The notes under the pieces were generated by a model. The model was not told where the DNA came from. It did no database searches and saw only the letters and a list, made by a program, of their open reading frames with translations. Shown here one piece after another: positions 39,811 to 58,509 of a stretch of DNA of 64,000 nucleotides; within the stretch, counting starts at the first letter, position 1, and each line of letters opens with the position of its first letter. A program made the position numbers and the translations under genes. The stretch is from the NCBI RefSeq assembly GCF_002407205.1, contig NZ_CP023548.1, positions 2,070,501 through 2,134,500 of the forward strand, read 5' to 3'. The stretch comes from Rhodobacter sp. CZR27 (GTDB taxonomy: Bacteria > Pseudomonadota > Alphaproteobacteria > Rhodobacterales > Rhodobacteraceae).

Positions 39811-40245
39811 TCAGAAGCAGACGATCTCGGCCTCGGCCTGCGCGCGGCGCAGGTCCGCCACCCCGGTCTCGGTTGCCGGTATGCGGAACAGCGACGACCG
39901 CTCGCCGGTGGCAAGCCGCATCGACAGCACGGTCTCCGCCCGCTCGTAGGCCTCATAGGGCAGGATCGAGGCGATGACGTCGATCGAACAGGCGCAGCGC
40001 CGCATCGTGTCGCGATCCTGCCCGTTCGTCGCGAGGCAGCCGAAGATGTAGTCGGCGCGCGCCAGCGTGGGATAGTCGTTCAGCGTCTCGTCCATGGTCG
40101 AGGACGGCACGGCAGGGACGGCTCCCGCGTCGGGTCCCCCCGGCCGCATCACCGCCGGCGGAGCGGCGGGATCGGGCGCCGGGCTCTGCGCCAGCGCGGT
40201 GACCGGCAGAAGGGCGAGGGTCGCGAGCAGGAGGCGCAGGGTCAT
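39811..40245 (-). CDS. Secreted protein of unknown function (144 residues)
   Basis: A signal peptide (LLLATLALLPVTALAQS) is followed by a Pro/Ala-rich linker and a domain with three cysteines (FGCLATNG, RRCACSIDV) and a final VCF. I do not recognise a named family. It overlaps the preceding secreted-protein gene by 4 nt and is the last gene of the methanol-regulator operon read leftwards. Confidence 0.7.
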   Translation of the reverse strand: MTLRLLLATLALLPVTALAQSPAPDPAAPPAVMRPGGPDAGAVPAVPSSTMDETLNDYPTLARADYIFGCLATNGQDRDTMRRCACSIDVIASILPYEAYERAETVLSMRLATGERSSLFRIPATETGVADLRRAQAEAEIVCF

Positions 40246-40850
40246 GGCGCCTCCAGCGTCAGCGTCTCGCGATAGCTGCCGCCCGCCCCGGTCGTGTCGG
40301 CCGACAGCTGGCGCAGCGGCACATCCCGGGACGGATCGACCGTGATCCGCAGCACCATGTCGGCAAAGGGACCCATCTCGGCGCGCCGGGCGTCGGTCGC
40401 GAAGGGGCGAAGCTCGGCGGTGACCGGCCCTTCGGCTTCGTCCAGACCGGCAGCACCCAGCGCCTCGCGCATCCGGTTGCGGATGTAGAACGGGCTGCCC
40501 TCGGTCAGTATCGCCATGCTGCGCACGGTATTCTCGAGGAACCACAGCAGCACCGGATCGCCGCCCGAGGCCGGGAAATCCGCGACGGGCTGGTCCTGCC
40601 CATCGACGCGATGGGTCAGGGTCAGGAGCGGGCCGCGCTCTCCCTTGCCGGGCGTCACGATCAGCTCGCCCGCGGCGACCCGGCGGAAGCCCTCGGTGTC
40701 CGGTCCTGCGCGCTCGTGTGCGTAGCGGGTGACGCCCTCGGTCGCCGCGAAGGCACCGGGGCGGAAGATCACCTCGGCCAACTGACCGGCCCAGGCCCCC
40801 GGCGCGGCAAGGACCGCCGCCCCGATCAGGATCGCTCGGATATGATGCAT
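40242..40850 (-). CDS. Secreted protein of unknown function (202 residues)
   Basis: An N-terminal signal peptide (ILIGAAVLAAPGAWAG) is followed by a mostly beta, soluble domain without cysteines. No motif I recognise. It is sandwiched between a hybrid kinase gene (10 bp upstream) and another secreted protein (4-nt overlap), so it may take part in the same methanol/formaldehyde response. Confidence 0.7.
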   Translation of the reverse strand: MHHIRAILIGAAVLAAPGAWAGQLAEVIFRPGAFAATEGVTRYAHERAGPDTEGFRRVAAGELIVTPGKGERGPLLTLTHRVDGQDQPVADFPASGGDPVLLWFLENTVRSMAILTEGSPFYIRNRMREALGAAGLDEAEGPVTAELRPFATDARRAEMGPFADMVLRITVDPSRDVPLRQLSADTTGAGGSYRETLTLEAP

Positions 40851-40860
40851 GCCTTCCCTC

Positions 40861-42291
40861 TCATTCCGCGGCGGCGGCCCCCCGCCGCCGGCCTTCCAGA
40901 AGCGCCGAAAGCGTCCGGCGCAATTCCGCCTCGGTCACCGGCTTGCGCAGCAGCGCAGCACCCAGCCGGTCCACCCGCGCCTGAAGCTGCGGATCGGGTT
41001 CCGCCGTGACCACCAGCGCCGGCAGCCGCTGGCCAAGCCGTCGGCGCAGCGCCGCGATGGTCTGCAAGCCTGTCTCGCCGCGCTCCAGCCGGTAATCCGT
41101 CACCACCGCCTCGGGCGGAAGCCGCTCCAGCGCGGCCAGCGCCGTGCCGGTTCCGTCGGCGGTGGCAACCTCCACCCCCCAGCGCCGCAACAGCAGGGCA
41201 TAGGCCTCGCGCATCGCGGCATCGTTCTCGACCACCAGCACGCGCCGTCCCGCCAGTTGCACGGGCGGCGCCGAGGCCGTGGGCTCGGCCAGCATCACCG
41301 GCTCGGCCCCGCTGCCGGCAAGTCGCTGCACCGCCCCGGTGGCCGAGGCGGGATCCGGCCCCGCTGCCAGCGCCCCGGGTGCCTCCAGCGCGCGGGGCAG
41401 ACGGATGCGGAACACCGACCCCCGCCCCGGCTCGCTCCGCAGGTCGATGTCATGGCCAAGCCTGAGACAGGCCCGCCGCACGATGGACAGGCCAAGGCCG
41501 GTGCCCGGCTCCTCGCCATCCGGCGCCAGCCGCTCGAATTCGTTGAAGATGCGCTCGCGATCCTCCACCGCGATGCCGGGTCCGGTGTCGTGGACCTCCA
41601 GCCAGACATCCGCGCCCTGCCGCCTGGCGCCGACCAGCACGCGGCCCGAGGCGGTATACTTGATCGCATTGGACACCAGGTTCTGCGCGATGCGGCGCAG
41701 GAAGACCGGGTTCGACATCACCGTGGCCGACGAGATCACGAAGCGCAGGTCGAGGCCCCGCGCCTCGGCCGCGCCCTGAAAGTCGACGGCCAGCCGCTGG
41801 AACAGCCGGCCGAGCGACACGCGCTCGCAGCTGACGTCGAGCCGGACGGAATCCAGCCGCGAGATTTCCAGCAGCGCGCGGATCAACTCCTCGGTCGAGT
41901 CGAAGGCCGTGCCGATCCGCGCCACGAGGTCAGACTGCAGCGGATCCGACAGCGTCTCGGACAGGTGCGACAGGAACAGCTTGGCCGCGCTCAGGGGTTG
42001 CAGCAGGTCGTGGCTCGCCGCGCGCAGGAAGCGCGACTTCGAACGGTTGGCCTCGTCCGCCGTCTCGCGCGCCAGCGCCAGTTCGCGGTTGGTCAGTTCC
42101 AGATGCGACAGCGCCTGTTCCAGATCGCGGTTGCGGGCGAGAAGTTCCTGTTCCAGCACGGCGGCGGTCTGGAACAGCATCCAGTGCGATCCGCGCGAGG
42201 CATCGGCCCGGTCCAGCCGGTCGATCAGCGCGGCATTGATGCGCTTCAGCTTCTCGATCTGGCGTTCCGGACTGTCCCCGTCACGCAGCAT
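40861..42291 (-). CDS. Hybrid sensor histidine kinase (FlhS/AfdS-like)
   Basis: A 476-residue cytoplasmic kinase with no membrane segment. A coiled coil (about 40-85) precedes the phosphoacceptor His94 (AASHDLLQPLSAAK), then the N box (NLVSNAIKYT), G1 (DTGPGIA), G2 (GTGLGLSIV), and a C-terminal receiver (about 350-465) with its Asp in VVTDYRLERGETG. It is next to a FIST protein and a LuxR-type regulator and close to adhI/xoxF. Paracoccus FlhS and Rhodobacter AfdS occupy this role for formaldehyde induction, so an equivalent job is likely but inferred. Confidence 0.82.
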   Translation of the reverse strand: MLRDGDSPERQIEKLKRINAALIDRLDRADASRGSHWMLFQTAAVLEQELLARNRDLEQALSHLELTNRELALARETADEANRSKSRFLRAASHDLLQPLSAAKLFLSHLSETLSDPLQSDLVARIGTAFDSTEELIRALLEISRLDSVRLDVSCERVSLGRLFQRLAVDFQGAAEARGLDLRFVISSATVMSNPVFLRRIAQNLVSNAIKYTASGRVLVGARRQGADVWLEVHDTGPGIAVEDRERIFNEFERLAPDGEEPGTGLGLSIVRRACLRLGHDIDLRSEPGRGSVFRIRLPRALEAPGALAAGPDPASATGAVQRLAGSGAEPVMLAEPTASAPPVQLAGRRVLVVENDAAMREAYALLLRRWGVEVATADGTGTALAALERLPPEAVVTDYRLERGETGLQTIAALRRRLGQRLPALVVTAEPDPQLQARVDRLGAALLRKPVTEAELRRTLSALLEGRRRGAAAAE

Positions 42292-43441
42292 GGTCGGGCT
42301 CCATCAGTGCGAGACCGACGAAGGTCTGGTTCACATGCACGCCGCCATGCTGCTCGCCGTAGGTGTTGAAGCCCGCGATGCGCCAGTCGGCGAAGAGCCT
42401 TGCCACCGCAGGCTCCAGCCCCGCCTGTTCCAGCGCCAGCCGGCGCAGGATGCAGTCGAAGGCCAGGATCAGCGCCGGCCGGCCGCCGAGGTCGCGAAGT
42501 CGCGCCTCGAGCCCGTGGGTCAGGTCATCCGCCCTGCCCAGCGCCAGAAGCACCCCGGTCTCGATCGAGGACATCAGCGTCAGGCCGCCCTCGGGCGTCA
42601 CCTCGCGGATCGCGCGGACATGGTATTGCCCGCCCATGCGCACCAGCAACGGATTTTCGGCGAAGACGCGCGGGTTCAGCGCCTCGGGATCGAGGCCGAT
42701 CAGCCGGGCATATTCCTCGGCCGCGGGCTCGGCGTTGATCTCGAGGATCAGCCGCTCCTCCGGGATTGCGGCTGTCACCACCATCCGGCCGCCCTCGGGC
42801 GAGAAGTGGTCGAAGATCACCTGCTCCAGCGCGAAGTCGGTCTCGAACAGGGCGAAGATCGCGCTGTCTCGGTGGGTCTCGCCATCGAGGACAAGGCAGG
42901 TCTCCTCGAAGCGCAGCCCGTCGCCGGCAGAGCCACCCAGCACCGGCAGACGATGGGCGACCGCATCGACCGTGGCTGCCACCAGTTCCTCCTGCCGGCT
43001 CAGCCCGTCGATCAGCAGCAGGCCGAAGCGCTGCCGCCGCGGCTGCGCGTCGAACCGCGTGAGCAATCCGCGCAGGCCGGTCATCCATTCCGACACACCA
43101 AGGCCCGAGAGGTTGCGCAGCCAGACCGCATCGGCGCGGAAGCGGCGCGCGGGCAGGCCCACCGCCACGACGTTGCCGTTGCCATAGCCGCCGCAGGCGA
43201 ATTCCCCCGCCGAGGAACAGCCGATGACCCGCGCCCCCAGCCCCGTGCGGAGCGTCGCGGCAAGGCTGGGCAGATCTGTGCCGGGCGAGGCGAACAGCAG
43301 CACGGCGGCCGGCGCCGCGGGTGCAAGGCCGTCCAGCAGCCGGGCGGCGAGGTCAGGCGCCGCCGCCGGATGGGACAGCACCACCGGCGCCCCCGCCGCG
43401 AGATCCGGGAGCGTCTCGCCGACGGCAAGTCCCTCGATCAC
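42281..43441 (-). CDS. FIST-domain sensory protein
   Basis: A 386-residue protein with an N-terminal FIST domain (VIGCSSAGEFACGG, VLGGSAGDGLRFEET) and a C-terminal FIST_C domain (DPEALNPRVFAENPLLV, FNTYGEQHGGVHVNQTFVG). FIST domains are predicted small-ligand sensors in signalling operons. A GTG was chosen as start with AGGAGG 7 nt upstream. Its end overlaps the kinase start by 11 nt, and the response regulator gene ends 41 bp before it, so all three form one unit. Confidence 0.85.
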   Translation of the reverse strand: MIEGLAVGETLPDLAAGAPVVLSHPAAAPDLAARLLDGLAPAAPAAVLLFASPGTDLPSLAATLRTGLGARVIGCSSAGEFACGGYGNGNVVAVGLPARRFRADAVWLRNLSGLGVSEWMTGLRGLLTRFDAQPRRQRFGLLLIDGLSRQEELVAATVDAVAHRLPVLGGSAGDGLRFEETCLVLDGETHRDSAIFALFETDFALEQVIFDHFSPEGGRMVVTAAIPEERLILEINAEPAAEEYARLIGLDPEALNPRVFAENPLLVRMGGQYHVRAIREVTPEGGLTLMSSIETGVLLALGRADDLTHGLEARLRDLGGRPALILAFDCILRRLALEQAGLEPAVARLFADWRIAGFNTYGEQHGGVHVNQTFVGLALMEPDHAA

Positions 43442-43482
43442 TCGCACTCCTCCTGCGGACGTCCCCTGGTCAATCCCGACCC

Positions 43483-44193
43483 CTAGCGCGCGAAGATCCG
43501 CGCCTTGCTCGCCAGAAGGGCGGCCTGCGTGCGGTTCCTCACGTTGATCTTCGACATGATGGCCGCGATGTGGGTCTTCACCGTCGCCTCGGCGATCGAA
43601 AGCTCGTAAGAGATCAGCTTGTTCGGCCGGCCCTGGCAGATCAGCCGCAGGATGTTCATCTGCTGCGGTGTCAGCGTGGCGAAACTGCGGGCGAGTTCGC
43701 GCATCTGCTCGCCCCCGTCCTCGGCGGCACCCTCGGCGTCGTATTCCTCGGGCGTCACCGGCTCTCCCGCCCACATCCGCTCGAAGGCGTCGATCATCTG
43801 CGGACGCGGCAGGCTCTTCGAGACGTAGCCCAGCGCGCCGGCCGCCATGACCGCCATCACCATGTCGGAATCGACCTCGGCCGAGATCACCGTCAGCGGC
43901 ACGTTGCGGGCCAGCCGCTTCAGCGTCATCACGCCCTCGATCCCGCGCACGTCCGGCAGGTTCAGGTCAAGCACGATGGCATCCGGCAGCGCCCCCTCGT
44001 GCAGCAGCTTCTCGGCGGCGGCGAGGCTTGCCGCGCTGCGCACGCGCTTCAGCCCGAAGGCATGCGTGAGCGTCATCGCCAGAGCATCGCACATCAGCGG
44101 ATGATCATCGACGATCATCACGTCGCTGATCCCGCGCGCGGGCACCTTTTGCGCTCCCGCGCAACCGATGCTCCACCCAGGAACATGTCCCAT
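43483..44193 (-). CDS. LuxR/NarL-family response regulator (FlhR/AfdR-like)
   Basis: A 236-residue regulator with receiver Asp76 (AIVLDLNLPDVRG) and a C-terminal HTH (LTPQQMNILRLICQGRPNKLISYELSIAEATVKTH...; the recognition helix is ATVKTHIAAIMSK). In Rhodobacter sphaeroides AfdR activates adhI after phosphorylation, and Paracoccus FlhR has the same role; location and partner kinase favour that assignment here. GGGAGGAAGAC precedes the ATG. Identity with AfdR itself is not proven. Confidence 0.82.
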   Translation of the reverse strand: MGHVPGWSIGCAGAQKVPARGISDVMIVDDHPLMCDALAMTLTHAFGLKRVRSAASLAAAEKLLHEGALPDAIVLDLNLPDVRGIEGVMTLKRLARNVPLTVISAEVDSDMVMAVMAAGALGYVSKSLPRPQMIDAFERMWAGEPVTPEEYDAEGAAEDGGEQMRELARSFATLTPQQMNILRLICQGRPNKLISYELSIAEATVKTHIAAIMSKINVRNRTQAALLASKARIFAR

Positions 44194-44398: not shown

Positions 44399-45208
44399 TC
44401 AGCCGGCCGGAACCGGGAAGGTGCCGCCAAACTCCGCGCCGTCGGTATCCACGGCGCGCACCTGAATCGCACCCGCTCCGTTGTCACGGTAGCGGAAGGT
44501 GAAGACCGGGTCTTCCGAGATCGAGATCCCGCCGGTCATCGTGAACAGCAGATCCTCGCCCTGCCGCACCTCGAGCAGGTCGATGAAGCGGGCGGGAATG
44601 GTCATCAGCGTGACCTGATCGCGCTGGAGCCCCGAATAGTTCGGATGCCGGATCATCAGCTTCGCCTCGCGCCGCAGGCCGCCGGCATCCTCGGCCGCGG
44701 CGAGCGGCTGGAACCGCATCTCGCCCAGATGCGCAAGAGCGGCTTCGGCATTCTTGCTTGACGGCGCGGCGCAGCCACCGCTGGCGCGAACGAAGCGCCC
44801 CGCCATGGTCCAGTCGCCCTCGTCCGTCCGCCCCACGGCCCGCACGTTCGAATAGGCGTTCACCCGGACGCGGACCTCGAGATCGAGCGGATGCATCGCC
44901 TCGCCCAGCGTGAAGGTGGCGGCGACCGGCGAGGGATTCTCGTCGATCATCAGCGTCATCTCGGTCAGGCGCGGCGCGTCGGCCGGCTGGGTCACGTGGA
45001 CGGGCACCAGCGCCGGGTCATGCGCGCGGAACGGCGCGTCGAGGGCCAACGCCGCGGGGGTTTCGGAAATGGCATCCGCTCCGAACACATCGAGGCGGAG
45101 GCTCTCCCACGCCTCGCCGGGCTGCAGCGGGCTCGGCTTCGGCTCCTCGGCCCAGAGCGGTGTCGCGATCAGAACTGCACAAATGATTGTCGGCCGGACG
45201 ATGCGCAT
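44399..45208 (-). CDS. Quinoprotein dehydrogenase-associated SoxYZ-like carrier
   Basis: A 269-residue periplasmic protein: signal peptide (LIATPLWAEE), a SoxY-like half (about 30-150) ending in a single-cysteine arm (ASGGCAAPS), then a SoxZ-like half (about 165-269, LMIRHPNYSGLQRDQ). In thiosulfate oxidation SoxY carries sulfur on a C-terminal GGCGG arm; here both subunits are fused and the cysteine is internal. Members of this family occur near PQQ dehydrogenases; their cargo is unknown. Divergent from the metallohydrolase gene. Confidence 0.85.
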   Translation of the reverse strand: MRIVRPTIICAVLIATPLWAEEPKPSPLQPGEAWESLRLDVFGADAISETPAALALDAPFRAHDPALVPVHVTQPADAPRLTEMTLMIDENPSPVAATFTLGEAMHPLDLEVRVRVNAYSNVRAVGRTDEGDWTMAGRFVRASGGCAAPSSKNAEAALAHLGEMRFQPLAAAEDAGGLRREAKLMIRHPNYSGLQRDQVTLMTIPARFIDLLEVRQGEDLLFTMTGGISISEDPVFTFRYRDNGAGAIQVRAVDTDGAEFGGTFPVPAG

Positions 45209-45315: not shown

Positions 45316-46359
45316 ATGTTTCATCTGCTGCTCACCGCCTGCCTTGCGGCCGAGCCCGCCACCTGCGCCGAGCGGCTGCTGCCGGCGCCGTCCCCTCTCA
45401 CACGCGAGGAATGCGAGACGGGGGCAGAGGCACGGGCCGCAAGCTGGCTGGCGACGCATCCGGATCTTGCGGGACGCGGCACGCGCTGCGCCGCTACCGA
45501 CTCGCTGCCGGCCCTGACCCTGTCCGAGGTCGTGCCGGGCGTTCTGGTGCACGAGGGCACCCCCGCCCTGCCCGACCGCGCGAACCGCGGCGCGATCGCC
45601 AATCTCGGGGTGGTGATCGGGACGGATGCGATCGCCGTGATCGACGCCGGATCCAGTCGGGCCGAGGCCGAGGCCCTGTTCGCGGCCATCCGCCTTCACA
45701 GCCCGCTGCCGATCCGCGCGCTGATCGTGACCCACATGCACCCCGACCACAGTTTCGGCGCGGACCTGTTCCGCGAGGCCGGGGCCGAGGTTCTCGGCGC
45801 GCCGAAGCTTGCCGCCGGCATCGAGTCCCGCGCCGCCGCATGGCTGCAGAGCTATCCGCCGCAGGTCGGGACAAAGGCCCTGCTGGGCACCCGGCCCATT
45901 CCCCCAGACCGCGGCGTCGCCGAGGAGCGGATCGACCTTGGCGGTGCGACGCTGCACCTGCGCGCCGCGGCCACCGCCCATACCGACAATGACCTGACCG
46001 TGCTCCACGCGGAGTCGGGCACGCTCTTCACGGGCGATCTGGTGTTCAACGGGCTTCTGCCCACGCTGGACGGCTCGCTGACCGGCTGGCTCGGCTGGCT
46101 GGGCGAGAGCCGCCCCGAGGTGCGCCGGATCGTGGCGGGACACGGTCCCGCTCCGCTGCCCTGGCCCGCGGGCGCCGCGGCCACCCGGGGCTATCTGGAC
46201 CGGCTGCGGACTGACATCCGCGCCGCCATTGCCGCCGGCCAGCCGATGAGCGAGGCGATCCGCCAGAGCCATCCGCAGGACGCCGCGCGCTGGCAGGGCT
46301 ACGATGTCAGCCACCCGCGCAACGCCTCGGCGGCCTATGCGGAACTGGAATGGGAATGA
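45316..46359 (+). CDS. Quinoprotein relay system zinc metallohydrolase (MBL fold)
   Basis: A 347-residue secreted metallo-beta-lactamase-fold protein. The zinc motif is THMHPDHSFGADLF, with further ligands in ATAHTDNDLTV, FTGDLVFNG and VAGHGPAP. A short N-terminal hydrophobic segment (LLLTACLAAEPATCAE) may be a signal. The family is known only from genomes with PQQ dehydrogenases, next to SoxYZ-like carriers, as here. Its reaction is unknown; thiol-ester hydrolysis on the carrier is conceivable. Confidence 0.82.
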   Translation: MFHLLLTACLAAEPATCAERLLPAPSPLTREECETGAEARAASWLATHPDLAGRGTRCAATDSLPALTLSEVVPGVLVHEGTPALPDRANRGAIANLGVVIGTDAIAVIDAGSSRAEAEALFAAIRLHSPLPIRALIVTHMHPDHSFGADLFREAGAEVLGAPKLAAGIESRAAAWLQSYPPQVGTKALLGTRPIPPDRGVAEERIDLGGATLHLRAAATAHTDNDLTVLHAESGTLFTGDLVFNGLLPTLDGSLTGWLGWLGESRPEVRRIVAGHGPAPLPWPAGAAATRGYLDRLRTDIRAAIAAGQPMSEAIRQSHPQDAARWQGYDVSHPRNASAAYAELEWE

Positions 46360-46371: not shown

Positions 46372-46965
46372 CTACTTCGGCAGGTGCCGGACCACTGCCC
46401 GTCCCAGCGCGAAGGCCCGGCGCTCGAGGATCACCGGCGTCTCGCAGACATAGGTCAGCGCCTGCTGGCGGTCGCGGAAGATCCGGGTGTCCCAGTCCAG
46501 CCGCTCCTCCAGCGCGTCGATGCGGTCGAAATCCTTCGGCTCGGCCGCCATCAGCGTGGCCATCTCGGCCCGGGTCCCGTCAATTCGCCGGTCGAGTGCC
46601 GCCTGGCTATGGGCATAGCGCGCGATACCGGCCATGACGCGGGTCCGCACTGCCTCGATCCGCTGGAAGGTCGCAAGGAACAGCGCCACGAGTTCCGCGG
46701 GCTCGTGCCCGTTCGCGAACTCGGCGATCATGGTTTCGGCCTCCTCGACCGGCAGGCGGCGCTGCTCCAGGGTTCGGGCCAGCGCCTCGATCTCGGGCGA
46801 GGCGGCCAGCTCCTCGGCCCGCGCATCGGGCACCGGCCCGCCCCAGACCTGCCCCAGCGACAGATGGGGCTGCTTGCGCTGCACGCAGGGCCAGTCGGGA
46901 TCGGAGGTTTCCGCCGCCCCGGCCGTGCCGGCCGCGAGGATCGCCGGAAGGACCCATCTGAGCAT
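46372..46965 (-). CDS. Secreted helical protein in the xox cluster (197 residues)
   Basis: A signal peptide (AILAAGTAGAAETS) precedes a mainly alpha-helical domain with two cysteines (DWPCVQRKQPHLSLGQVW and TYVCETPV). The region resembles unnamed proteins encoded beside the PQQ-associated ABC transporter; I cannot give a function. AGGAGG precedes the ATG, 9 bp after the permease gene ends, so it is the last gene of that operon. Confidence 0.7.
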   Translation of the reverse strand: MLRWVLPAILAAGTAGAAETSDPDWPCVQRKQPHLSLGQVWGGPVPDARAEELAASPEIEALARTLEQRRLPVEEAETMIAEFANGHEPAELVALFLATFQRIEAVRTRVMAGIARYAHSQAALDRRIDGTRAEMATLMAAEPKDFDRIDALEERLDWDTRIFRDRQQALTYVCETPVILERRAFALGRAVVRHLPK

Positions 46966-46974
46966 CGAAACCTC

Positions 46975-47835
46975 CTAGCGCTTGCGCAGCGACCAAAGAC
47001 CCTTGGACGGGTCATACATGAAGACCGCCGCCCCGAAGAACGCCGCCGCACAGCCGAGGACGATCGCGAAGGCCAGCGGCTCGAACTGCAGGTAGAGCGC
47101 GAAACGGATCAGCTCCACGGCATGGGTGAAGGGATTGGCGAAGGCGATGTCGGCCAGCAGCGGGCTTGAATCGCGCAGCCGCCACAGCGGATAAAGCGCG
47201 GTCGAGGCGAAGAACATCGGGAAGATCACGAAGTTCATCACCCCCGCGAAATTCTCCAGCTGCCGGATCGCCGACGAGATGAAAAGGCCCAGCGCCCCCA
47301 GCATGATGCCCGACAGGAACAGCGCCGGCAGCACGGCCAGATAGCCGAGCGGCGGCGGCTCGATCCCCCAAGCCCAGGCGATCAGCAGGAAGGCATAGAC
47401 CTGCAGGATCGAGACCAGCACCCCCGCCACCAGCTTCGAGCCGAGCAGGAACCAGCGCGGGTAGGGGCTGACCAGCAGCGTCCGCATCGCCCCCGTCTCG
47501 CGGTCATAGACCATCGAGAGCGAGGACTGCATGCCGTTGAACAGCTGGATCATCGCGCAAAGGCCGGGCGTGACGTAGACTTCGTAGAGCACGTAGGTCT
47601 GGTAGGGCGGCGTGATCGACAGCCCGAGCACCGCGCGGAACCCCGCGGCGAAGATGAACAGCCAGACCAGCGGACGCACCAGCGCCGACAGGAAACGCTC
47701 GCGCTGGCGGGTGAAGCGCAGCACCTCGCGCCCGGCAATGCCGGAAAACGCGATGAGGTAGCCGCGCAGGGATCGCCCATGTCCCAGCGGTGGCCGCGGA
47801 GTCGCCACGGCAGGCGGACGGTGGGGCGCGGTCAT
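46975..47835 (-). CDS. ABC-2 type transporter permease, PQQ-dependent catabolism type
   Basis: A 286-residue membrane protein with about six helices and the ABC-2 layout (YDRETGAMRTLLVSPYPRWF amphipathic loop). It overlaps the ATPase gene by 4 nt. Such exporters accompany PQQ alcohol dehydrogenase clusters; the substrate is unknown. Confidence 0.88.
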   Translation of the reverse strand: MTAPHRPPAVATPRPPLGHGRSLRGYLIAFSGIAGREVLRFTRQRERFLSALVRPLVWLFIFAAGFRAVLGLSITPPYQTYVLYEVYVTPGLCAMIQLFNGMQSSLSMVYDRETGAMRTLLVSPYPRWFLLGSKLVAGVLVSILQVYAFLLIAWAWGIEPPPLGYLAVLPALFLSGIMLGALGLFISSAIRQLENFAGVMNFVIFPMFFASTALYPLWRLRDSSPLLADIAFANPFTHAVELIRFALYLQFEPLAFAIVLGCAAAFFGAAVFMYDPSKGLWSLRKR

Positions 47836-48560: not shown

Positions 48561-48799
48561 TCCTTGCGCTTCTCCGTCACGGCGAAATTCGCGTCGAGCT
48601 TGATGTCATACTGCCCGTCGGCGCAGAACACGTCATCCAGTTCCCATCCGTCCCCCTCGGCCTCGATGTTGGCAGGATCGACCTCGCATTGCATCGCGGC
48701 AAGCAGCGCCGTCACCTTCTCGACGGTGGCCGGGTCGGCCTCCTGCGCCATGGCCGGTGCGGCGGCGAGCAGAAGGCCCAGCGTCACGATCTTCTTCAT
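48557..48799 (-). CDS. Small secreted protein (80 residues, PepSY-like end)
   Basis: A signal peptide (LLLAAAPAMAQE) leaves a mature part of about 60 residues with two cysteines (AMQCEVDP and DVFCADGQ). The C-terminal YDIKLDANFAVTEKRKE resembles the strand pair of PepSY domains. Function unknown. GGGAGAGAGGA precedes the ATG; it sits between the beta-propeller group and the ABC ATPase in one operon. Confidence 0.72.
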   Translation of the reverse strand: MKKIVTLGLLLAAAPAMAQEADPATVEKVTALLAAMQCEVDPANIEAEGDGWELDDVFCADGQYDIKLDANFAVTEKRKE

Positions 48800-49244: not shown

Positions 49245-49258
49245 CCCTGTCCTCCGTT

Positions 49259-50227: not shown

Positions 50228-51406
50228 CTATCGCTCGATCTTGCAGGTGGTTTCCGGGCGGTCGATGCCGAGCGTGTCGAGCTGGGAGACCTGATGCAGA
50301 TATTCGGCCTGCGGCGAGACCGTGGCCACGATCGGGCCCGAGCCGAGCAGGATCGGCTGGCGCAACTGGCCATCCCAGTCGCGCCAGGTCAGTGGCTGGC
50401 CCTTGAAGGCGCCAAGCTGGAACTGGTCGGACAGCATGTAATCCCTGAGCACGGCCATCTCGGCGGAACCGGTGCGCGTCGCGGCCTCGCCCACCGCGCG
50501 CAACGCAAGCCAGACCTGATAATCCTCCTCGCGCGCGGGGCGGTTCGCCAGCTTCTCGAACCGGCTCTGGAACTGGGTGCCGCCCCACATCTCCATCGCG
50601 GGGTGCCAGCTCATCGGCCGCAGGCCGGCGGAACCCGCAACCGGGCGCGGCTCCCAGGTGTGATAGGGCAGATAGGCGGCGAACAGACCGGTCTCGTCGG
50701 CCGCCACCACCACGTCGTGATCCTCGGCCCGCTGGGTGAACGAAGGGATCTGCGCCTGGATCTGCACGAGGCCGCTGTCGGTGGCGCGGGCGCCGCCGGT
50801 ATCCTCGAACACGCGCTCCTCGACGATCTCCGCGCCGAACTTGGTTGCGGCGCGGCGGTAGGCCCCGGCCATGGCCTTGTCGCCCGGGTGGCTGCCCTCG
50901 ATCAGGAACCACTCGCCCCATTTCTTCCAGACGAGGAACTGCGCCAGCGCGTCGGCCAGCATCGCGCGGCTGGGCGCGGTGTGGAACAGGTTCGCACGGC
51001 ACTGCTCGCCCCGCAGGGCATCGCCGCGGGCACGGGCGTTGAAGACCATCACCCCCTCGCCCGCCGCATCGGCCAACGCCACGGTCGTCTCGTCGTCCGC
51101 CAGCGTCACGACCAGCTTCGCGCCGGAAGCCACGATCTTCTGCATCGCCTCCAGCGCGGTCTCGGGCGTCGCCGTCACCTCCTCGGTGACGAAGTTCTGT
51201 CCCATGAACCGGCCGGTGGTGGCGTTGTCAGCCGTGCCGAGCCTTGCCCCGGCGAAACCCAGATCCTCGGGCGGCAGGTCGAGCCGGGACACGGGCGGTC
51301 GGCCAGCCACGTCCACGCGCAGCACCGCCGCCCGGATGTCGATCTGCGCCATCGCCGTTCCCGGCAGAAGCAGGGCCGCGACCAGCGCGGCTCGGATCCT
51401 GTGCAA
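50228..51406 (-). CDS. ABC transporter substrate-binding protein, PQQ dehydrogenase-associated
   Basis: A 392-residue periplasmic protein of the type I fold seen in branched-chain amino acid binders (FLVWKKWGEWFLIEGSHPGD, VVAADETGLFAAYLPYHTW). The signal peptide ends PGTAMAQID. The start is TTG, placed 5 nt after GGAGGAG; no ATG is available. The family is restricted to PQQ-alcohol dehydrogenase gene sets. Its ligand is unknown, and it may not pair with a classical importer, since the nearby permease is of ABC-2 export type. Confidence 0.85.
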   Translation of the reverse strand: MHRIRAALVAALLLPGTAMAQIDIRAAVLRVDVAGRPPVSRLDLPPEDLGFAGARLGTADNATTGRFMGQNFVTEEVTATPETALEAMQKIVASGAKLVVTLADDETTVALADAAGEGVMVFNARARGDALRGEQCRANLFHTAPSRAMLADALAQFLVWKKWGEWFLIEGSHPGDKAMAGAYRRAATKFGAEIVEERVFEDTGGARATDSGLVQIQAQIPSFTQRAEDHDVVVAADETGLFAAYLPYHTWEPRPVAGSAGLRPMSWHPAMEMWGGTQFQSRFEKLANRPAREEDYQVWLALRAVGEAATRTGSAEMAVLRDYMLSDQFQLGAFKGQPLTWRDWDGQLRQPILLGSGPIVATVSPQAEYLHQVSQLDTLGIDRPETTCKIER

Positions 51407-51448: not shown

Positions 51449-51982
51449 TCAACCCGGCGCCGGCGCCACTTCCTCCAGATCCCCGCCGAGATCCTGCCAT
51501 GCCTCCACGCCGCCGGGGAACCAGTGAACCCCCGTAAAGCCCCAGCCGATCGCGCGTTTCGCCGCGTTCCACGACATCCAGCAGTCGCGCTTGCAGAAGA
51601 TCACCACCTCGGCAAGCGGCTGCCCCCGCGTCACCCGCTCCAGCCCCTTGCGCAGGTAGGCCTCTTCCGCCGGGGCCAGCGCCTCGTAGCCGGTGTTGGG
51701 CAGCCAGATCGCGCCGGGGATGCTCTGGTGCGGCTTCTCGCGCCAGACCGTGCCTTCGGGCAGCCCCTCGGGTTTCGCCTCGCGCGGCAGCACGTCGACG
51801 AAGGGCACGCCGCGATCATGCAGCGCCCGGGCCTCTTCCGCCGCGATGCCGGCGCGACCCAGCACCGTCGCGGGGACCGCCTCTCGGTAGGGCGGGCCGC
51901 GGAAGCCCTCCGGCTCCGGCACCTCGGCCGTGGCCGGCCCGGCCAGCGCCAGCGACAGAAGCAGGGCGGCCGCAGCCCTCAT
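51449..51982 (-). CDS. PQQ-associated Cys-Trp motif protein (rhodanese-like)
   Basis: A 177-residue periplasmic protein with a signal peptide (SLALAGPATAEV) and a rhodanese-type domain ending in IFCKRDCWMSWNAAKRA. The family is known as the PQQ-dependent catabolism CXXCW protein, but here three residues separate the cysteines. FVDVLPREAK is the rhodanese N-terminal loop. Likely handles a thiol or sulfur relay. Overlaps xoxJ by 4 nt. Confidence 0.85.
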   Translation of the reverse strand: MRAAAALLLSLALAGPATAEVPEPEGFRGPPYREAVPATVLGRAGIAAEEARALHDRGVPFVDVLPREAKPEGLPEGTVWREKPHQSIPGAIWLPNTGYEALAPAEEAYLRKGLERVTRGQPLAEVVIFCKRDCWMSWNAAKRAIGWGFTGVHWFPGGVEAWQDLGGDLEEVAPAPG

Positions 51983-52791
51983 CCGGCCTCCTTCAGCCCG
52001 CGGCCGTAATCGTCCAGCAGCGGCACGCCTGCGTCCCTCAGGATCGCGTCGAGCGCCCCCTGCTCGCGCCGGATCAGGGAGTTCAGCTCGCGCTTCCAGA
52101 CATCCTCGCCCTGCCTGACGCCCATCGTGATGCGATAAAAGAGCTTCGGCGCCCCCTCCTCCTTCACCAGCGGAATGGCCTTGAGCGCCGGATGCGCCTT
52201 CACCAGCGGCCCGCCGACCGGCCCCCACAGCACGGCTGCGTCGATCTCGCCCGACTCGACGGCCGCCAGCATGTCGCCGGCCGGATCCTCGACCCGCCGG
52301 TCCACCATGAGGCTGTAGGGTCTGGCCTTCGCCATCAGCCCGTTGCGCGCCAGATGCGAGGCCGGGGGCGAGCCTGCGACCACGCCGATCCGGTGGCCCT
52401 TCAGCGCGGGATCGGCCAGCCGCTCGATGCCTGCGAGCGGCCCGTCGGCGCGCACCACCAGCACATGCGTCGAGGTGTAGTAGTGGTTGGTGTTCAGCAC
52501 CAGCTCGTCGCCCTGCGCGTAGCCGATCACCACGTCGCACTTGCCGGCGAACAGCGTGTTCCGCACGAAGCCGGTCGCCATCGGAAACCAGGTGTATTCA
52601 AGCGGCTTGCCGAGGGCCGATGCCAGATGCTCCGCAATGCGGTTCTCGAAGCCCGAGCCGTCCCGGCTGGACATCGGCACCAGCGCCGGATCGGCGCAGA
52701 CGCGGAACGCCGCATCCGAGACCAGATCGGCCACCTGCGCCGCGGCCGGCTGCGCGGCCAGCGCCGCGGCAAGCAGCACGCCCCGCATCAT
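51979..52791 (-). CDS. xoxJ: XoxJ-like periplasmic binding protein of the methanol oxidation system
   Basis: A 270-residue type II periplasmic binding fold protein (FRVCADPALVPMSSRDGSGFENRIAEHLA..., VGYAQGDELVL-like core). Signal peptide ends AAQPAAAQ. The family (MxaJ/XoxJ) is thought to help fold or activate the methanol dehydrogenase rather than transport a solute. The ATG overlaps the stop of the cytochrome gene (ATGA). Confidence 0.88.
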   Translation of the reverse strand: MMRGVLLAAALAAQPAAAQVADLVSDAAFRVCADPALVPMSSRDGSGFENRIAEHLASALGKPLEYTWFPMATGFVRNTLFAGKCDVVIGYAQGDELVLNTNHYYTSTHVLVVRADGPLAGIERLADPALKGHRIGVVAGSPPASHLARNGLMAKARPYSLMVDRRVEDPAGDMLAAVESGEIDAAVLWGPVGGPLVKAHPALKAIPLVKEEGAPKLFYRITMGVRQGEDVWKRELNSLIRREQGALDAILRDAGVPLLDDYGRGLKEAG

Positions 52792-53318
52792 TCCATGCAC
52801 GTCTTTTCCACCTCGGCATATTCGGGCGTCTTGTCGGCGCGCTTCGCCGGCCGGCCCCGATCCAGCGCCCCCGACCCGCGGGCGCGCAGATAGGTCCAGA
52901 TGTCGTCGACATAGCACATCACGTTCGGGTTGGTCCCGAAGGCCGGCATCACCAGCGTGGTCGCCTTGCCCACCTCCTGCTTGCCGTTCGCGATCGTGGC
53001 GAGGAAATCGTAGTAGTCCAGCCGCATCACGCTGTCCTTCAGGGGGGGGGCATAGGTCGAGCCCATGCCGTCCGGCCCGTGGCAGACGTGACATTCCGAC
53101 TGGTAGCGCCGGTAGCCCGAGAATGTGGGCCAGTCCACCGTCCCGTCCTCGGCGATGTTGAAGGTCGGCACCTCCTCGGCGTTGTAGGACCGGATGCCAT
53201 CCGTCGAGGCGACGGCCACATCCGCGCCCTGCGCCGCAGCCTCGGCCGAAGCCAGCGACGAGGCGCCGGCCATCAGGGCGAGGGCTGCCATCGCGCCCAG
53301 GGACATAGCGGTCTTCAT
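52788..53318 (-). CDS. xoxG: Cytochrome c XoxG-like (c-553i type), electron acceptor of XoxF
   Basis: A 176-residue periplasmic c-type cytochrome. Signal peptide about 1-25; one heme site C76HVCH80; two further cysteines (VMCYVDD and KTCME) as in methanol-metabolism '4-cys' cytochromes. Paracoccus cycB (cytochrome c553i) is the comparable gene, also beside xoxF. The codons for APPL contain nine C in a row (9 G on the plus strand), a possible slippage site; the frame is intact here. Confidence 0.92.
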   Translation of the reverse strand: MKTAMSLGAMAALALMAGASSLASAEAAAQGADVAVASTDGIRSYNAEEVPTFNIAEDGTVDWPTFSGYRRYQSECHVCHGPDGMGSTYAPPLKDSVMRLDYYDFLATIANGKQEVGKATTLVMPAFGTNPNVMCYVDDIWTYLRARGSGALDRGRPAKRADKTPEYAEVEKTCME

Positions 53319-53405: not shown

Positions 53406-55208
53406 TCACTCCGGCACGGCGAAGACGGTCAGCTGACCGCCAAGCTCGGTGTAGTCGGACAGGGCCGCATAGCCGCCGACGGCGCCGAGGCCCTCGTTCG
53501 GGTTGGTGAGGCCCGCGGCAAGGCCGATGCCCGCCCAGCCGCCGACGCCCGAGAGCACGCCGACATACTGCTTGCCCTCGTGCTCGTAGGTCATCACGTT
53601 GCCGATGATCCCCGAGGGCGTCTTGAACTTGTAGAGTTCCTTGCCCGTCTCGGCATCGACCGCCTTCAGGTAGCCCTCCAGCGTGCCATAGAACACCACG
53701 TCACCCGCCGTCGCGAGAGCACCCGACCAGACCGAGAACTGCTCGGGCAGCGACCACTTGATCTCGCCCTTCGTCGCGTCCCAGGCGATGAAGTTGCCCA
53801 TGCCGCCATGGCTGTCCGGCGCTGGATACATCGAGAGCGTGGCGCCGACATAGGGCTGGCCGGCGGCATAGCTCACCCGGTAGGGCTCGTAATCCATGCA
53901 GACGTGGTTCGTCGGCACGTAGAACAGGCCGGTCTTCGGCGAGAAGGCTGCAGGCTGCTGGTCCTTGGTGCCCAGCGCCGCCGGGCAGACGCCCGCGGTG
54001 TTGGTGTCCTCGCCGTTCTGCGCGGTCGAGTATTGCGCCACCACCTGCGGACGGCCGTACTGGTCGGACTCCTTGTCCATCACGACTTCCGTCGCCCAGT
54101 TCACCGCCGGGTCATACTTCTTCGCGACGAGAAGTTCGCCTGTCTCGCGATCCAGCGTGTAGGCAAAGCCGTTCCGGTCGAAGTTCACCAGCAGCTTGCG
54201 CATCTGCCCGTCGATCTCCTGATCGACGAGGATGTTCTCGTTCACGCCGTCATAGTCCCACTCGTCATGCGGGGTCTTCTGGTACATCCACTTGGCCACG
54301 CCGGTGTCGGCGTCGCGGGCCATGATGGTCATCGACCACTTGTTGTCGCCCGGACGCTGCGAGGGGTTCCAGGTCGACGGGTTGCCGGTGCCATAGTAGA
54401 TCAGGTTCAGGTCGGGGTCGTAGGAATACCAGCCCCAGGTCGTGCCGCCGCCGATCTGCCACTGGTCGCCTTCCCAGCTCTTGATCGAGCTGTCGGCGCC
54501 CACAGGCTTGCCGAGCACCATGGTCTTCTCGGGATCGACGAGCATCTCGGCGTCCGGGCCGGTCGAGAAGGCGCGCCACACCTGCTTGCCGGTCTTCATG
54601 TCGTAGGCCGTCACATGGCCGCGCACGCCGAACTCGCCACCCGAGATGCCGACGAGGATCTTGTCCTTGACCGGCATCACGGTCGCCGTGTTGGTCTGGC
54701 CCTTGGTGGGATCGCCGTTCTGGACGGTCCACTTGACCTCGCCGGTTTTGGCGTCGAGCGCGACCACCGTCGTATCGGCCTGGTGCAGGAAGATCATGCC
54801 GTCGGCATAGGCCACGCCGCGGTTGACGGTGTCGCAGCACATCACGCCGATCACGTCGGGGTTCTGCTTCGGCTCGTAGCGCCACAGGATCTTGCCGTCG
54901 TTGTTCAGGTCGAGGGCGTAGACGTTGTTCGGGAACGGCGTGTGGACATACATGACGCCATCCACCACGAGCGGCGAGCCCTCGTGGCCGCGCAGCACGC
55001 CGGTCGAGAAGGTCCACGCGACCTGCAGCTTGCCCACGTTCTCGCGGGTGATCTGGTCAAGCTCGGAATAGCGCGTGTTGGCGTAGTCCCCGGTCTGGAT
55101 CGCCCACTGCTTCGCGTCGTCGGTCGCCTTGATGACCGAGTCATTCGCCAGGACCGGTGCGGCCGACAGCATCAGCGCGGCACACAGACCCGTATTGAGA
55201 ATCTTCAT
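53406..55208 (-). CDS. xoxF: Lanthanide-dependent PQQ methanol dehydrogenase XoxF
   Basis: A 600-residue periplasmic eight-bladed quinoprotein oxidising methanol. Signal peptide ends PVLAND. The vicinal cysteine pair is Cys124-Cys125 (GVMCCDT). The active-site motif is EWDYDGVNE: catalytic Asp318 and Asp320, the extra aspartate that marks lanthanide-binding XoxF and is Ala in calcium MxaF. Glu192 (GGEFGV) and Asn276 (GTGNPSTW) complete the metal site. GGGAGGAGCC precedes the ATG. No mxaF or mxaI is present. Confidence 0.96.
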
Positions 55209-55301
55209 TGGCTCCTCCCGATGTTGATTTCTTGGAATTGATCGTGAAAATCGCCGGTTGCGGCCCCCTCCTCCGGATCCCTCAACCCTCCCGTCGGGAC
55301 A

Positions 55302-55330: not shown

Positions 55331-55416
55331 CGCTGCCGGCACCCCAGTAAGCCCAAAGTATGACCGGCTGGCGAGGGGCGCGTGGATGCGCGAAACGCCT
55401 GCACCGGCGACATTTT

Positions 55417-55836
55417 TCAGCCCCCCGCGGCCGGGGTCGCGGCTTCGCCGCCGGCCGCCGGCGCGAAGGTGCCGAGATAGGCGATGAGGTCTGCGATCTC
55501 CTCGGGCTTGCGGATGCCGGGGAACGACATCTTGGTGCCGGGCATCGCCTTGCGCGGATTCTCGAGGAAGCCGGCAAGGCTCTCCTCGGTCCAGACCAGA
55601 CCGCCCGCGGCGGCCTCGGTCATGGCCTTGGAATAGGCGAAGCCGTCGACGCTGCCTGCAGGCCGGCCGACGACGCCGGTCAGGACGGGGCCGGTCTTGT
55701 TCTCGGCCTCGGGGCCGATCTGGTGGCAGACCATGCACTTGCGAAAGGACTTCTCGCCTGCGGCGGGATCGCCCTCGGCAAAGGCTTCCGGCGCGGCCAC
55801 CATGGCAGCGCCGGTCAGGAACGTCATCAGTCTCAT
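55417..55836 (-). CDS. cycI: Isocytochrome c2
   Basis: A 139-residue secreted class I cytochrome c. Signal peptide about 1-20; heme site C34MVCH38; the axial Met is in GTKMSFPG. The C-terminal tail is Ala/Gly-rich. In Rhodobacter sphaeroides cycI lies directly after adhI, as it does here (131-bp gap), and isocytochrome c2 can replace cytochrome c2 in photosynthetic electron transfer. It may also accept electrons from methanol oxidation. AAAGGGAGAAG precedes the start. Confidence 0.85.
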
Positions 55837-55967
55837 CGTCTTCTCCCTTTGCGGATCGCTGGCGGGCGCTGCCTCGGGCAGGCCGCCGTCCCGCCGGCGG
55901 GGGCCGACGGGGCTCACTGGCACCGACACTCGGGAAAATCGTCACGCTTCGGCGGGCGGGGCCGCGG

Positions 55968-57098
55968 TCAGAAGACCACGACCGAACGGATGCTCTCGCC
56001 CGATTTCATCAGGTCGAACCCCTTGTTGATATCCTCGAGCTTGAGGATATGCGTGATCATCGGGTCGATCTGGATCTTTCCTTCCATGTACCAGTCGACG
56101 ATCTTGGGCACATCGGTCCGGCCCCGCGCGCCGCCGAAGGCCGAGCCCTTCCAGACCCGCCCCGTCACCAGCTGGAACGGCCGGGTCTGGATCTCGGCCC
56201 CCGCCGGCGCCACGCCGATCACGATGGACTGGCCCCAGCCGCGGTGGCACGCCTCGAGCGCCTGGCGCATCACCTTCACATTGCCCGTGCAGTCGAAGGT
56301 GTAATCGGCCCCGCCGATCTGGTCGAAGGGCGTCTTGGTCATATTGACCAGATGGGCCACGATGTCGCCCTCGATCTCGGTCGGATTGACGAAATGCGTC
56401 ATGCCGAACCGCTCGCCCCAGTCCTTCTTCGCGTTGTTGAGGTCCACGCCGATGATCATGTCGGCGCCGGCAAGGCGCAGGCCCTGGATCACGTTGAGGC
56501 CGATGCCCCCCAGCCCGAACACCACCGCCTTGGCGCCGATCTCGACCTTCGCCGTGTTGATCACCGCGCCGATGCCGGTGGTGACCCCGCAGCCGATGTA
56601 GCAGATCTTGTCGAAGGGCGCGTCCTCGCGGACCTTGGCCACCGCGATCTCGGGCAGCACCGTGTAGTTCGAGAAGGTCGAGCAGCCCATGTAGTGCAGG
56701 ATCGGCGTGCCATCGAGCATCGAGAAGCGGCTCGTGCCGTCGGGCATCAGTCCCTGGCCTTGCGTCGCGCGGATCGAGGTGCAGAGGTTCGTCTTCTGGG
56801 AAAGGCAGGACGGGCACTGCCGGCATTCGGGGGTGTAGAGCGGGATGACGTGGTCGCCCGGCTTCACGCTCGTCACGCCGGGGCCGACCTCGACCACCAC
56901 GCCCGCGCCCTCGTGCCCGAGGATCGCCGGGAACATCCCCTCCGGGTCGGCGCCCGAGAGCGTGAACTCGTCGGTGTGGCAGATGCCGGTGGCCTTGATC
57001 TCGACCATCACCTCGCCGGCCTTCGGCCCTTCGAGGTTCACCTCCATGATCTCCAGCGGTTTTCCCGCGGCAACGGCCACGGCGGCACGCGTGCGCAT
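55968..57098 (-). CDS. adhI: S-(hydroxymethyl)glutathione dehydrogenase (class III alcohol dehydrogenase)
   Basis: A 376-residue zinc enzyme that oxidises the formaldehyde-glutathione adduct to S-formylglutathione with NAD+. Conserved parts include catalytic zinc ligands in [13 protein letters not shown] and GHEGAGVV, structural zinc cysteines ([15 protein letters not shown]) and the cofactor motif [13 protein letters not shown]. Regulated in Rhodobacter by AfdRS (activator) and RfdRS (repressor). It follows gfa by 180 bp, which contains a terminator. Confidence 0.95.
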
Positions 57099-57256: not shown

Positions 57257-57278
57257 GGAGCCGCAGCGAGGGGCTGCG

Positions 57279-57872
57279 TCAGGCGGCGAGCTTGCCCGAC
57301 CGCTTGGCGAGATGGGTGGCGATCGCGTCCATCAGCGGCGGCGACAGCGCGTCATAGGGCTCGAGCCCCAGTTCGCGCAGCCGCGCCCGGATGCCGTCCA
57401 TCCGGTCGGGCGAGACGCCGCTCTCGATCACCGAGGAGACGAAGGCCGCGAAGCCCGGAGCGGCCCAGCCATCCTCGGACGACAGTTCGGTATGAATGAA
57501 GTCGAGCCCGTAGAACGGATGGTCCTTGTTCTCGATCCGCCCATACATGTGCGTGCCGCAGCCCGTGCAGGCATAACGCTGAATCGCCATGTTCGGATCG
57601 ACAACCTTCAGCTTGTCGCCGTTGGCCACGACCTCGACCGCACCGCGGGGCACCACGGCCACCATGCTGAAGATCGCCCCGTCGGGCTTCCAGCACTTGG
57701 TGCAGCCGCAGACGTGGTTGTGCGCCGATTGCGCGTTGATGCGCACTTCGACCGGGCGGTCCGTGCACTTGCAGCGCAGCGTGCCGCCCTGGAAGTCCTC
57801 GCGGCCCGGCTTCACGCCGTTATCGACCGAAGGATGGATCTTCACGTCGCTTCCCTGTGTCATGTCGGCCAT
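57279..57872 (-). CDS. gfa: Glutathione-dependent formaldehyde-activating enzyme
   Basis: A 197-residue Gfa protein, proposed to speed or channel the joining of formaldehyde and glutathione. Zinc-type cysteine sites are clear: [17 protein letters not shown] and [12 protein letters not shown]. The start at MADMTQG has GGAGG 5 nt upstream. Directly upstream of adhI, as in Paracoccus. Confidence 0.93.
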
Positions 57873-58017
57873 TGCATCCTCCCTGAAATGCGCGCCGATT
57901 GTCGCAAGCACCGCCGAGTCCTTCGAGTCAGCCATTGGGCGGAGGGATCCGCCGACCCGCGGCCTGCAACCTTCGTCCGACTTGCCCGCCCCCCCGGCCG
58001 CGCGCCACAGTTGCGGC

Positions 58018-58509
58018 ATGACCCGCCTCATCCTGCTTCTGCTGCTGATGGCAGCGCCCGCAGCGGCCGACGATCCCTGGCAGGGTCGCAGCGCCGCCTT
58101 CTTCGGCGTAAGCTTCCTCGACACCTCGACCGAGGGCGACCTGAACGGCGCGCGTGCCGACGAGGCCGCCCGGGTGGAACTGGTGGAGCGGCAGGCGGCC
58201 GAGGCCTTCCGCGCCCGGGGGGTGACGCTGCTCGATCTTGGCCCGGTGGCCGAGGATCTGGGGCGCATCCGCAATCCGGCGAAATGCAACGGCTGCGAGC
58301 TGCGCATGGCACGCCGGCTCGGCGCCGACTATGCCATCGTGGCCGAAGTGCAGAAGGTCTCGAACCTCATCCTTGCGATGAACCTCTATGTGAAGGAGGT
58401 GGCGACCGGCGCCCAGATCCGCGGGCAGGCGGTCGATATCCGCGGCAACACCGATGAAAGCTGGCAGCGCGGCATGCGCTACATCCTGGAGCGCAACGTC
58501 TTCCGGTGA
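58018..58509 (+). CDS. Secreted DUF3280/DUF2380-type protein
   Basis: A 163-residue protein with a signal peptide ([17 protein letters not shown]) and a domain with two close cysteines ([21 protein letters not shown]). Similar unnamed proteins occur near methanol oxidation genes. The sequence [13 protein letters not shown] and [17 protein letters not shown] resembles lipoprotein-like periplasmic domains that sense or report. Function unknown. It is divergent from gfa with a 145-bp gap. Confidence 0.72.

Follow-up and report, generated by a model that had tools for sequence, protein, structure and literature searches.

We analysed a group of genes around xoxF in a 64,000-nucleotide stretch of DNA from Rhodobacter sp. 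CZR27 (contig NZ_CP023548.1, positions 2,070,501 to 2,134,500), hereafter called the window. XoxF is one of the central lanthanide enzymes in methanol oxidation; how it is assembled in the periplasm is not settled. The group occupies approximately 39.8-57.9 kb of the window, chiefly on the minus strand, and is predicted to be a XoxF methanol/lanthanide island of separable modules, recognized by homology, gene order and distribution: xoxF-xoxG-xoxJ; a set of genes in lutABCDEFG order; glutathione-dependent formaldehyde genes; NosP/NahK/ErdR-like regulators; a thiol module consisting of a fused SoxYZ-like carrier, a zinc hydrolase and a rhodanese-like CX3CW protein; and two small secreted proteins, sp39 and sp40. 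We give this account about an even chance of being the best explanation of the region as a whole. Every part listed in an initial annotation of the DNA (XoxF, carrier, hydrolase, Cys-Trp protein, ABC-2 transporter, binding protein, propeller and five small proteins) was present, with scores over the NCBIfam cut-offs where families exist. The same annotation had put the region forward as an undescribed system, and this is not supported for most of it, which is already catalogued or described: the three proteins of the thiol module are curated and have been the subject of hypotheses (PMC12997753, PMC11237559), the lut order has been reported (PMC7391723) and the xoxF5 cluster published (PMC5934484). 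These four reports, and PMC12628762 below, are cited for the sections available to us. In the family databases and literature searched, short of a full survey of the field, only sp39 and sp40 are undescribed.

Unless the plus strand is named, the genes below lie on the minus strand. XoxF (53406..55208, its start placed by eye within an open reading frame at 53406-55577) scored 784 bits against TIGR03075 (cut-off 480). It carries a vicinal cysteine (CC) pair and a WDYDG motif with the extra lanthanide aspartate, and its best matches among solved structures were the XoxF structures 6oc5 and 6dam. A tree of the window protein and 87 dehydrogenase sequences, which came from 41 genomes of an even sample of 200 Pseudomonadota genomes, placed it in a clade with 16 other genomes. 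Next to it lie the XoxG cytochrome (52788..53318; TIGR03874, 245 bits, cut-off 162) and XoxJ (51979..52791, start by eye; TIGR03871, 284 bits, cut-off 212).

The carrier (44399..45208) covers positions 1-225 of the 226 in the TIGR04557 model with 264 bits (curated cut-off 140) and is 83% identical to a Cereibacter azotoformans protein. Its Cys146 lies in a GGC tip, and this cysteine was invariant in 38/38 aligned sequences (38 of 120 listed proteins) and in 80/80 sequences from the carrier loci described below. As a true SoxY or SoxZ (TIGR04488, TIGR04490) it fell short, with 51 bits each against cut-offs of 125 and 76. Divergent from it, on the plus strand, is the zinc hydrolase of the metallo-beta-lactamase fold (45316..46359), called quinoprotein relay hydrolase 2 (TIGR04559, 329 bits, cut-off 280), which also weakly matched hydroxyacylglutathione hydrolase (E value 1.2e-4). 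All seven ligands of the dinuclear site, assigned by the ligand pattern of this fold, were present in 73/73 aligned sequences. The rhodanese-like protein (51449..51982; TIGR03865, 206 bits, cut-off 128) has the motif C-X3-C-W in 35/35 aligned sequences, despite the NCBI family name CXXCW, and both cysteines, in the rhodanese-like part, are invariant (35/35). All three belong to curated NCBI families, and 'quinoprotein relay system' is NCBI wording. These and the following invariance counts include the window protein and sequences of 0.7-1.35 times its length, which kept 73/75 for the hydrolase, 35/37 for the CX3CW protein, 59/68 for sp39, 66/66 for sp40 and 53/53 for the further small protein sp46.

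The genes for sp39 (39811..40245) and sp40 (40242..40850) lie at one end of the island, and that for sp46 (46372..46965) next to the ABC genes, in the lutG position by comparison with the published order (PMC7391723). Secretion of the small proteins was called by eye from their N termini. None of the five small secreted proteins of the island matched NCBIfam at an E value of 0.001 or scored over a Pfam cut-off, and sp39 and sp40 had no Pfam match even at an E value of 0.1. Four cysteines of sp39 were invariant in 59/59 aligned sequences; in the window protein the spacing includes C-x13-C-x-C, with the last cysteine adjoining the C-terminal phenylalanine. The sp39 family is large, with at least 7,991 relatives at an E value of 0.001 (7,999 candidates scored). 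Among the matches listed, they were named hypothetical or uncharacterized, with one labelled HdeA/HdeB and some labelled lysyl-tRNA synthetase, and comparison of sp39 with solved folds gave no convincing match. A structure model of sp40 may resemble the LolA/LprG/LppX fold, and sp46 has two cysteines that are invariant in the aligned sequences. Besides the window proteins, the alignments comprised 36/67 rows for sp39, 44/65 for sp40 and 31/52 for sp46.

In the even sample, the XoxF clade covers 17 of the 200 genomes, and sp39 was found in exactly these 17 and in 0/183 others; a match of 17/17 between random sets would have a probability of approximately 10^-24, a figure that ignores relatedness. 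We also searched 189 genomes of the window's family, almost each from a different genus, and counted XoxF at 65% identity or more to the window protein (25 genomes; in G207 and G278 only fragments at contig ends). Here sp39 occurred in 26 genomes, namely all 25 with XoxF and genome G245, and in 0/31 genomes having only other pyrroloquinoline quinone (PQQ) dehydrogenases. With G000 and G175 common to both samples, there were 40 distinct XoxF genomes, and sp39 was present in every one (40/40). XoxF genomes beyond the window's class were few in the samples; G070 is the only one among the 17. The other small proteins followed XoxF less completely in the even sample: sp46 was found in 16/17 XoxF genomes and sp40 in 9/17, both in no other genome, and neither sp39 nor sp46 occurred in any of the 24 sampled PQQ dehydrogenase genomes without XoxF. 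On plasmids, XoxF (E value 1e-180) was detected on 132 and sp39 (E value 1e-4) on 126 of 72,556 records, with equal counts in Sinorhizobium (75), Azospirillum (10), Rhizobium (9), Paraburkholderia (8), Phyllobacterium (4), Sagittula (3), Salipiger (2), Alloyangia (2) and Microvirga (2), an agreement drawn from genus counts and 60 rows of each search. Thus a small unnamed secreted protein has the same occurrence as XoxF in the even sample and nearly so in two others, and no partner tested was more constantly associated with XoxF than sp39, which accompanies it in alphaproteobacteria and betaproteobacteria and in one family besides.

It is possible, if rather unlikely, that sp39 and sp40 follow XoxF through inheritance or transfer of the island as a block and act elsewhere, for example for the carrier or for lanthanide uptake. 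We scanned GTDB representative contigs for the carrier and took the best 80 of 300 confirmed loci, mostly alphaproteobacterial, including as much as 10 kb of flanking DNA on either side. The hydrolase was found in 74 of these loci, sp39 in 67, sp40 in 65, sp46 in 52, XoxF in 40, xoxG in 38, xoxJ in 37 and the CX3CW gene in 36; selection was by carrier, and many flanks stop early at contig ends. In many of them sp39 adjoins the carrier, as expected of block inheritance, which would also account for the nearly identical distribution of sp46 and the thiol module in alphaproteobacteria. Against it, sp39 and XoxF lie on separate contigs in G004, G059, G167 and G175, and in G187 approximately 0.8 Mb separates sp39 from the closer XoxF. 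Moreover, sp39 accompanies XoxF in G070, where carrier and sp46 were not detected, and is missing from seven genomes that have the carrier and lack XoxF.

In the betaproteobacterium Azoarcus KH32C the genes run xoxF-xoxG-xoxJ-sp40-sp39-hydrolase 2-carrier-second hydrolase in one direction; in Paraburkholderia phymatum sp39 lies approximately 8 kb from xoxF; almost all of the island is on Sinorhizobium meliloti plasmid CP050561.1, where hypothetical proteins adjoining the carrier correspond to sp40 and sp39; and several Paracoccus loci have carrier, hydrolase, regulators, sp40 and sp39 near pqq genes (pqq recognized by eye). Because sp39 and sp40 stand behind xoxJ in Azoarcus and their occurrence matches that of XoxF, they may work on XoxF itself, which makes them candidate XoxF accessory proteins. 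Our best guess, held more weakly than the role proposed for the thiol module below, is that they act beside XoxJ in maturing or stabilizing XoxF. That the helical sp39 and the possibly LolA-like sp40 would be dedicated XoxF biogenesis factors, an unnamed part of the assembly, seems to us to have somewhat less than an even chance. In G245, the only sp39 genome of the family sample outside the 25 with XoxF, the regulators, sp40, carrier, sp46, adhI, gfa and a cycI-like piece are kept around sp39 (loci L248/L249, G245:C16:450000-489990), and the hydrolase is split across two frames. The 40 kb around sp39 gave no match to xoxF, xoxG, xoxJ, the CX3CW gene, the binding protein or the propeller, nor did the whole genome contain XoxF at an E value of 1e-60, and we read G245 as a genome that lost the XoxF enzyme.

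The thiol module had a wider distribution. In the even sample, 41/200 genomes contained a PQQ alcohol dehydrogenase that scored over cut-off for TIGR03075. The carrier model scored over cut-off in 44; we kept the 23 with the match in one open frame and dropped 21 in which it crosses stops or joins neighbours, which we took as separate soxY and soxZ. All 23 lay inside the 41, as did the CX3CW protein (22/200) and hydrolase 2 (17/200), which over their cut-offs were found only among the carrier's 23. The carrier occurred in 16 of the 17 XoxF genomes (not in G070) and in seven genomes without XoxF, from which we conclude that it serves PQQ dehydrogenases broadly. Twenty-nine of the 189 genomes in the family sample had a carrier over cut-off, all free of stops: 24 of the 25 XoxF genomes, three with another PQQ dehydrogenase, and G245 and G219, neither of which contained a PQQ dehydrogenase at an E value of 1e-60 to the window XoxF. 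The carrier therefore lacked such a dehydrogenase in 0/23 genomes of one sample and 2/29 of the other, and was not widespread without one. The thiol module is associated with PQQ dehydrogenases, with XoxF more frequently than with others but not exclusively. Of the periplasmic thiol or persulfide relay suggested in the initial annotation, the co-occurrence of carrier, hydrolase and two-cysteine rhodanese-like protein with PQQ alcohol dehydrogenases stands; a relay specific to XoxF was rejected, given the carrier genomes without XoxF. A lanthanide-type dehydrogenase was no strict predictor either: in 13 genomes with such a sequence and no XoxF, a set drawn up by eye from the dehydrogenase tree, the carrier was present in six and not in seven. 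G147, whose WDFDST sequence falls among the quinohemoproteins of the tree, was excluded from the 13 and is also without carrier, and G054 has a carrier and no lanthanide-type sequence over cut-off.

What the thiol module may do has been considered before. A 2026 review joins rhodanese, carrier and hydrolase and suggests disulfide formation, cofactor stabilization or protection of PQQ from sulfur nucleophiles (PMC12997753), and a 2024 study of lucinid symbionts proposed that a SoxYZ fusion near xoxF shields methanol dehydrogenase from thiosulfate (PMC11237559). Our own literature search joining PQQ, rhodanese, vicinal disulfide and alcohol dehydrogenase found no paper. If the three proteins were a maturation device for PQQ dehydrogenases, one that makes or mends the vicinal disulfide or assists cofactor insertion, as proposed in PMC12997753, the two invariant cysteines of the CX3CW protein and the place of module members next to xoxJ in Azoarcus would fit. 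We nevertheless consider this improbable. The CC pair is present in 83/87 PQQ dehydrogenases, and all 18 PQQ dehydrogenase genomes without carrier have at least one sequence that contains it. The pair does not predict the carrier, and the distribution argues against the module being there for the vicinal disulfide. Nor were the three genes named, in the sections available, in the XoxF-dependent screen discussed next.

We suggest instead, as the simplest reading by analogy, that the module could work like SoxYZ and a hydrolase, with the carrier loaded and then unloaded hydrolytically. The invariant carrier cysteine would take up a periplasmic sulfur adduct (or an aldehyde-derived one), the CX3CW protein would exchange it and the zinc hydrolase would remove it, so that PQQ and the dehydrogenase may be kept free of nucleophiles. 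In our view the most likely function would be to clear sulfur adducts, or similar ones, from the vicinity of PQQ; this would be a conditional function, not a step that XoxF needs. Consistent with a conditional role, none of the three genes is named among the 28 genes of a XoxF-dependent Methylorubrum extorquens screen (PMC7391723, sections available), and little effect was seen by randomly barcoded transposon sequencing (RB-TnSeq) in Pseudomonas putida without lanthanide (told in PMC12997753). A connection with sulfur is suggested by the hindrance of methanol growth of Hyphomicrobium by thiosulfate (told in PMC12997753 and PMC11237559), by YeeE-like PmpAB beside Sox(YZ)-SoxH-PQQ enzyme genes in Hyphomicrobium (PMC11582611) and by the replacement of SoxB by SoxH in Sulfurimonas (told in PMC11237559).

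The adduct could also be an aldehyde. In such a periplasmic aldehyde-thiol relay, the carrier cysteine would bind formaldehyde or another aldehyde produced by the dehydrogenase, which would be oxidized to a thioester, and a glyoxalase-II-like hydrolase would release the acid. The fold of the hydrolase, with its full ligands and weak hydroxyacylglutathione hydrolase match, the neighbouring glutathione-formaldehyde genes and the assignment of SoxYZ fusions to carbon metabolism in PMC11237559 agree with this. However, no enzyme was identified for the oxidation step, the rhodanese-like protein is left unexplained and the glutathione genes of the same island already handle formaldehyde; we regard the aldehyde relay as less probable still than a maturation device.

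Several observations weigh against clearing of sulfur adducts by the thiol module and against an action of sp39 and sp40 on XoxF. The carrier is found without XoxF in 7/23 genomes; G070 and G286 have XoxF, and no carrier was detected in them. Since the hydrolase fold is common to glyoxalase II, the adduct need not be sulfur, and PmpAB had no evident importance in the oxidation of sulfur and showed no change in expression with thiosulfate (PMC11582611). The M. extorquens screen, as far as the available sections tell, lists only genes hit at least four times and may miss small genes, and an equation of its orf6 and orf7 with sp40 and sp39 could not be confirmed. sp40 was undetected in 8/17 XoxF genomes. 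Methylocystis, with XoxF on three plasmids, does not appear in the genera listed for sp39, and plasmid-borne xoxF of Methylocystis and M. bullatum had no sp39 in flanks of 12 and 20 kb, respectively; these flanks contained no match to xoxG or xoxJ either, and no sp40 was found near the M. bullatum gene.

In 25/80 carrier loci there is a second fused SoxYZ-like paralogue (for example L058:1020-1823 and L066:878-1702), with a median identity of 33% to the first and a GAC[AS]AP tip in 25/25; it adjoins the CX3CW gene in most of these loci. No second fused carrier scored over cut-off in the genome of the window.

Between the carrier and xoxJ, seven genes (46372-51406) stand in lutA-lutG order: a type I periplasmic binding protein of the PedA1/LutA type (50228..51406; TIGR03863, 491 bits, cut-off 414), a beta-propeller in the PedA2/lutB position (49259..50218; TIGR03866, 528 bits, cut-off 287), small secreted proteins in the lutC (48813..49262) and lutD (48557..48799; PepSY_2 below threshold, E value 0.044) positions, an ATP-binding cassette (ABC) ATPase of the PedB/LutE type (47832..48560; TIGR03864, 321 bits, cut-off 302), an ABC-2 permease of the PedC/LutF type (46975..47835; TIGR03861, 390 bits, cut-off 241) and sp46. 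The small genes in the lutC, lutD and lutG positions were assigned from order and not by sequence comparison with M. extorquens AM1, and the combination of a PedC/PedB-type ABC pair with a PQQ-associated binding protein and propeller in this order identifies the set as lut/PedA1A2BC. In AM1, lutE and lutF mutants did not grow on methanol with lanthanum, lutA, lutB and lutG mutants of M. extorquens were slow, a lutC mutant had a small defect and a lutD mutant none of significance (PMC7391723). Bradyrhizobium and Sinorhizobium are reported to have homologues of lutA, lutB, lutE, lutF and lutG (PMC12628762), and PedA1A2BC of P. putida, the same ABC set, is said to carry lanthanide into the cytoplasm (PMC12997753). 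By these published accounts the transporter, called an ABC-2 exporter in the initial annotation, would be an uptake system. The distribution tables separate what lies mixed in the common neighbourhood: lanthanide uptake (lut), a thiol module for several PQQ dehydrogenases and partners of XoxF only.

The regulators (40861-44193) and the formaldehyde genes (55968 to approximately 57872) are members of the same island. The former comprise a NahK/ErcS-like hybrid histidine kinase (40861..42291; 336 bits, below the family cut-off of 400), a NosP-like FIST protein in an open reading frame at 42281..43774 (start uncertain; 42281-43474 gave 320 bits, below the cut-off of 450) and a LuxR-type response regulator nearest to ErdR (43483..44193; 140 bits, below cut-off). 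The latter are a class III, glutathione-dependent formaldehyde dehydrogenase (55968..57098), identified by eye from the sequence and from the annotation of its S. meliloti counterpart, and Gfa, S-(hydroxymethyl)glutathione synthase (57279..57872, start by eye; TIGR02820). Between them and xoxF lies a c-type cytochrome (55417..55929; PF00034), which we take to be cycI-like. The pqqE gene is outside the island, at C1:2672995 of the same 4.44 Mb genome, on the contig that also holds the window.

Directly downstream of sp39 is an NMT1/THI5-type ABC transporter (permease, binding protein and ATPase; 37157-39784). NMT1-type transporters that are not closely related are also found in the S. meliloti and Paracoccus islands; the binding protein of the window matched neither its S. 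meliloti counterpart nor any open reading frame of the 80 loci. An operon of the phosphate-uptake type, recognized by Pfam families and including PhoU and a response regulator (30960-37083), adjoins the lanthanide island; the poor solubility of lanthanide phosphates makes a link between the two conceivable. Elsewhere, 16-17 of the 80 loci have genes of vWA-domain and BatD-like appearance (mxaACKL type, judged by eye) after the island, beyond the response regulator in L012, L015, L016, L026 and L029, and in S. meliloti a DUF3280 protein (L247:29875-30396) lies between the CX3CW and lutA-like genes.

Compared with known systems, the island shares with the lut cluster of M. extorquens AM1 the order binding protein, exported protein, two periplasmic genes, ATPase, permease and exported protein (PMC7391723); no lutH receptor or lanmodulin was noticed among the genes examined, and no search was aimed at them. 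The S. meliloti island on CP050561.1 adds fghA, a thioredoxin, the DUF3280 protein and Calvin-cycle genes. With the xoxF5 cluster of Rhodobacter sphaeroides 2.4.1 and a roseobacter strain, La 6, it has adhI, soxH, xoxF5, xoxG, xoxJ and gfa in common; carrier, sp39 and sp40 go unmentioned in the available sections of that report (PMC5934484). The SoxYZ fusions S2 and S4 of lucinid symbionts belong to another lineage and are described, in the sections available, without mention of sp39 or sp40; as here, they are found close to soxH together with a PQQ dehydrogenase or xoxF (PMC11237559). The ped cluster of P. putida, which has PedE/PedH in place of XoxF, shares PedA1A2BC, the rhodanese PP_2666, the SoxYZ-like PP_2677 and SoxH PP_2678 with the island, and its NosP-type, kinase and LuxR regulators stand beside PQQ dehydrogenases, as they do in the window (PMC12997753).

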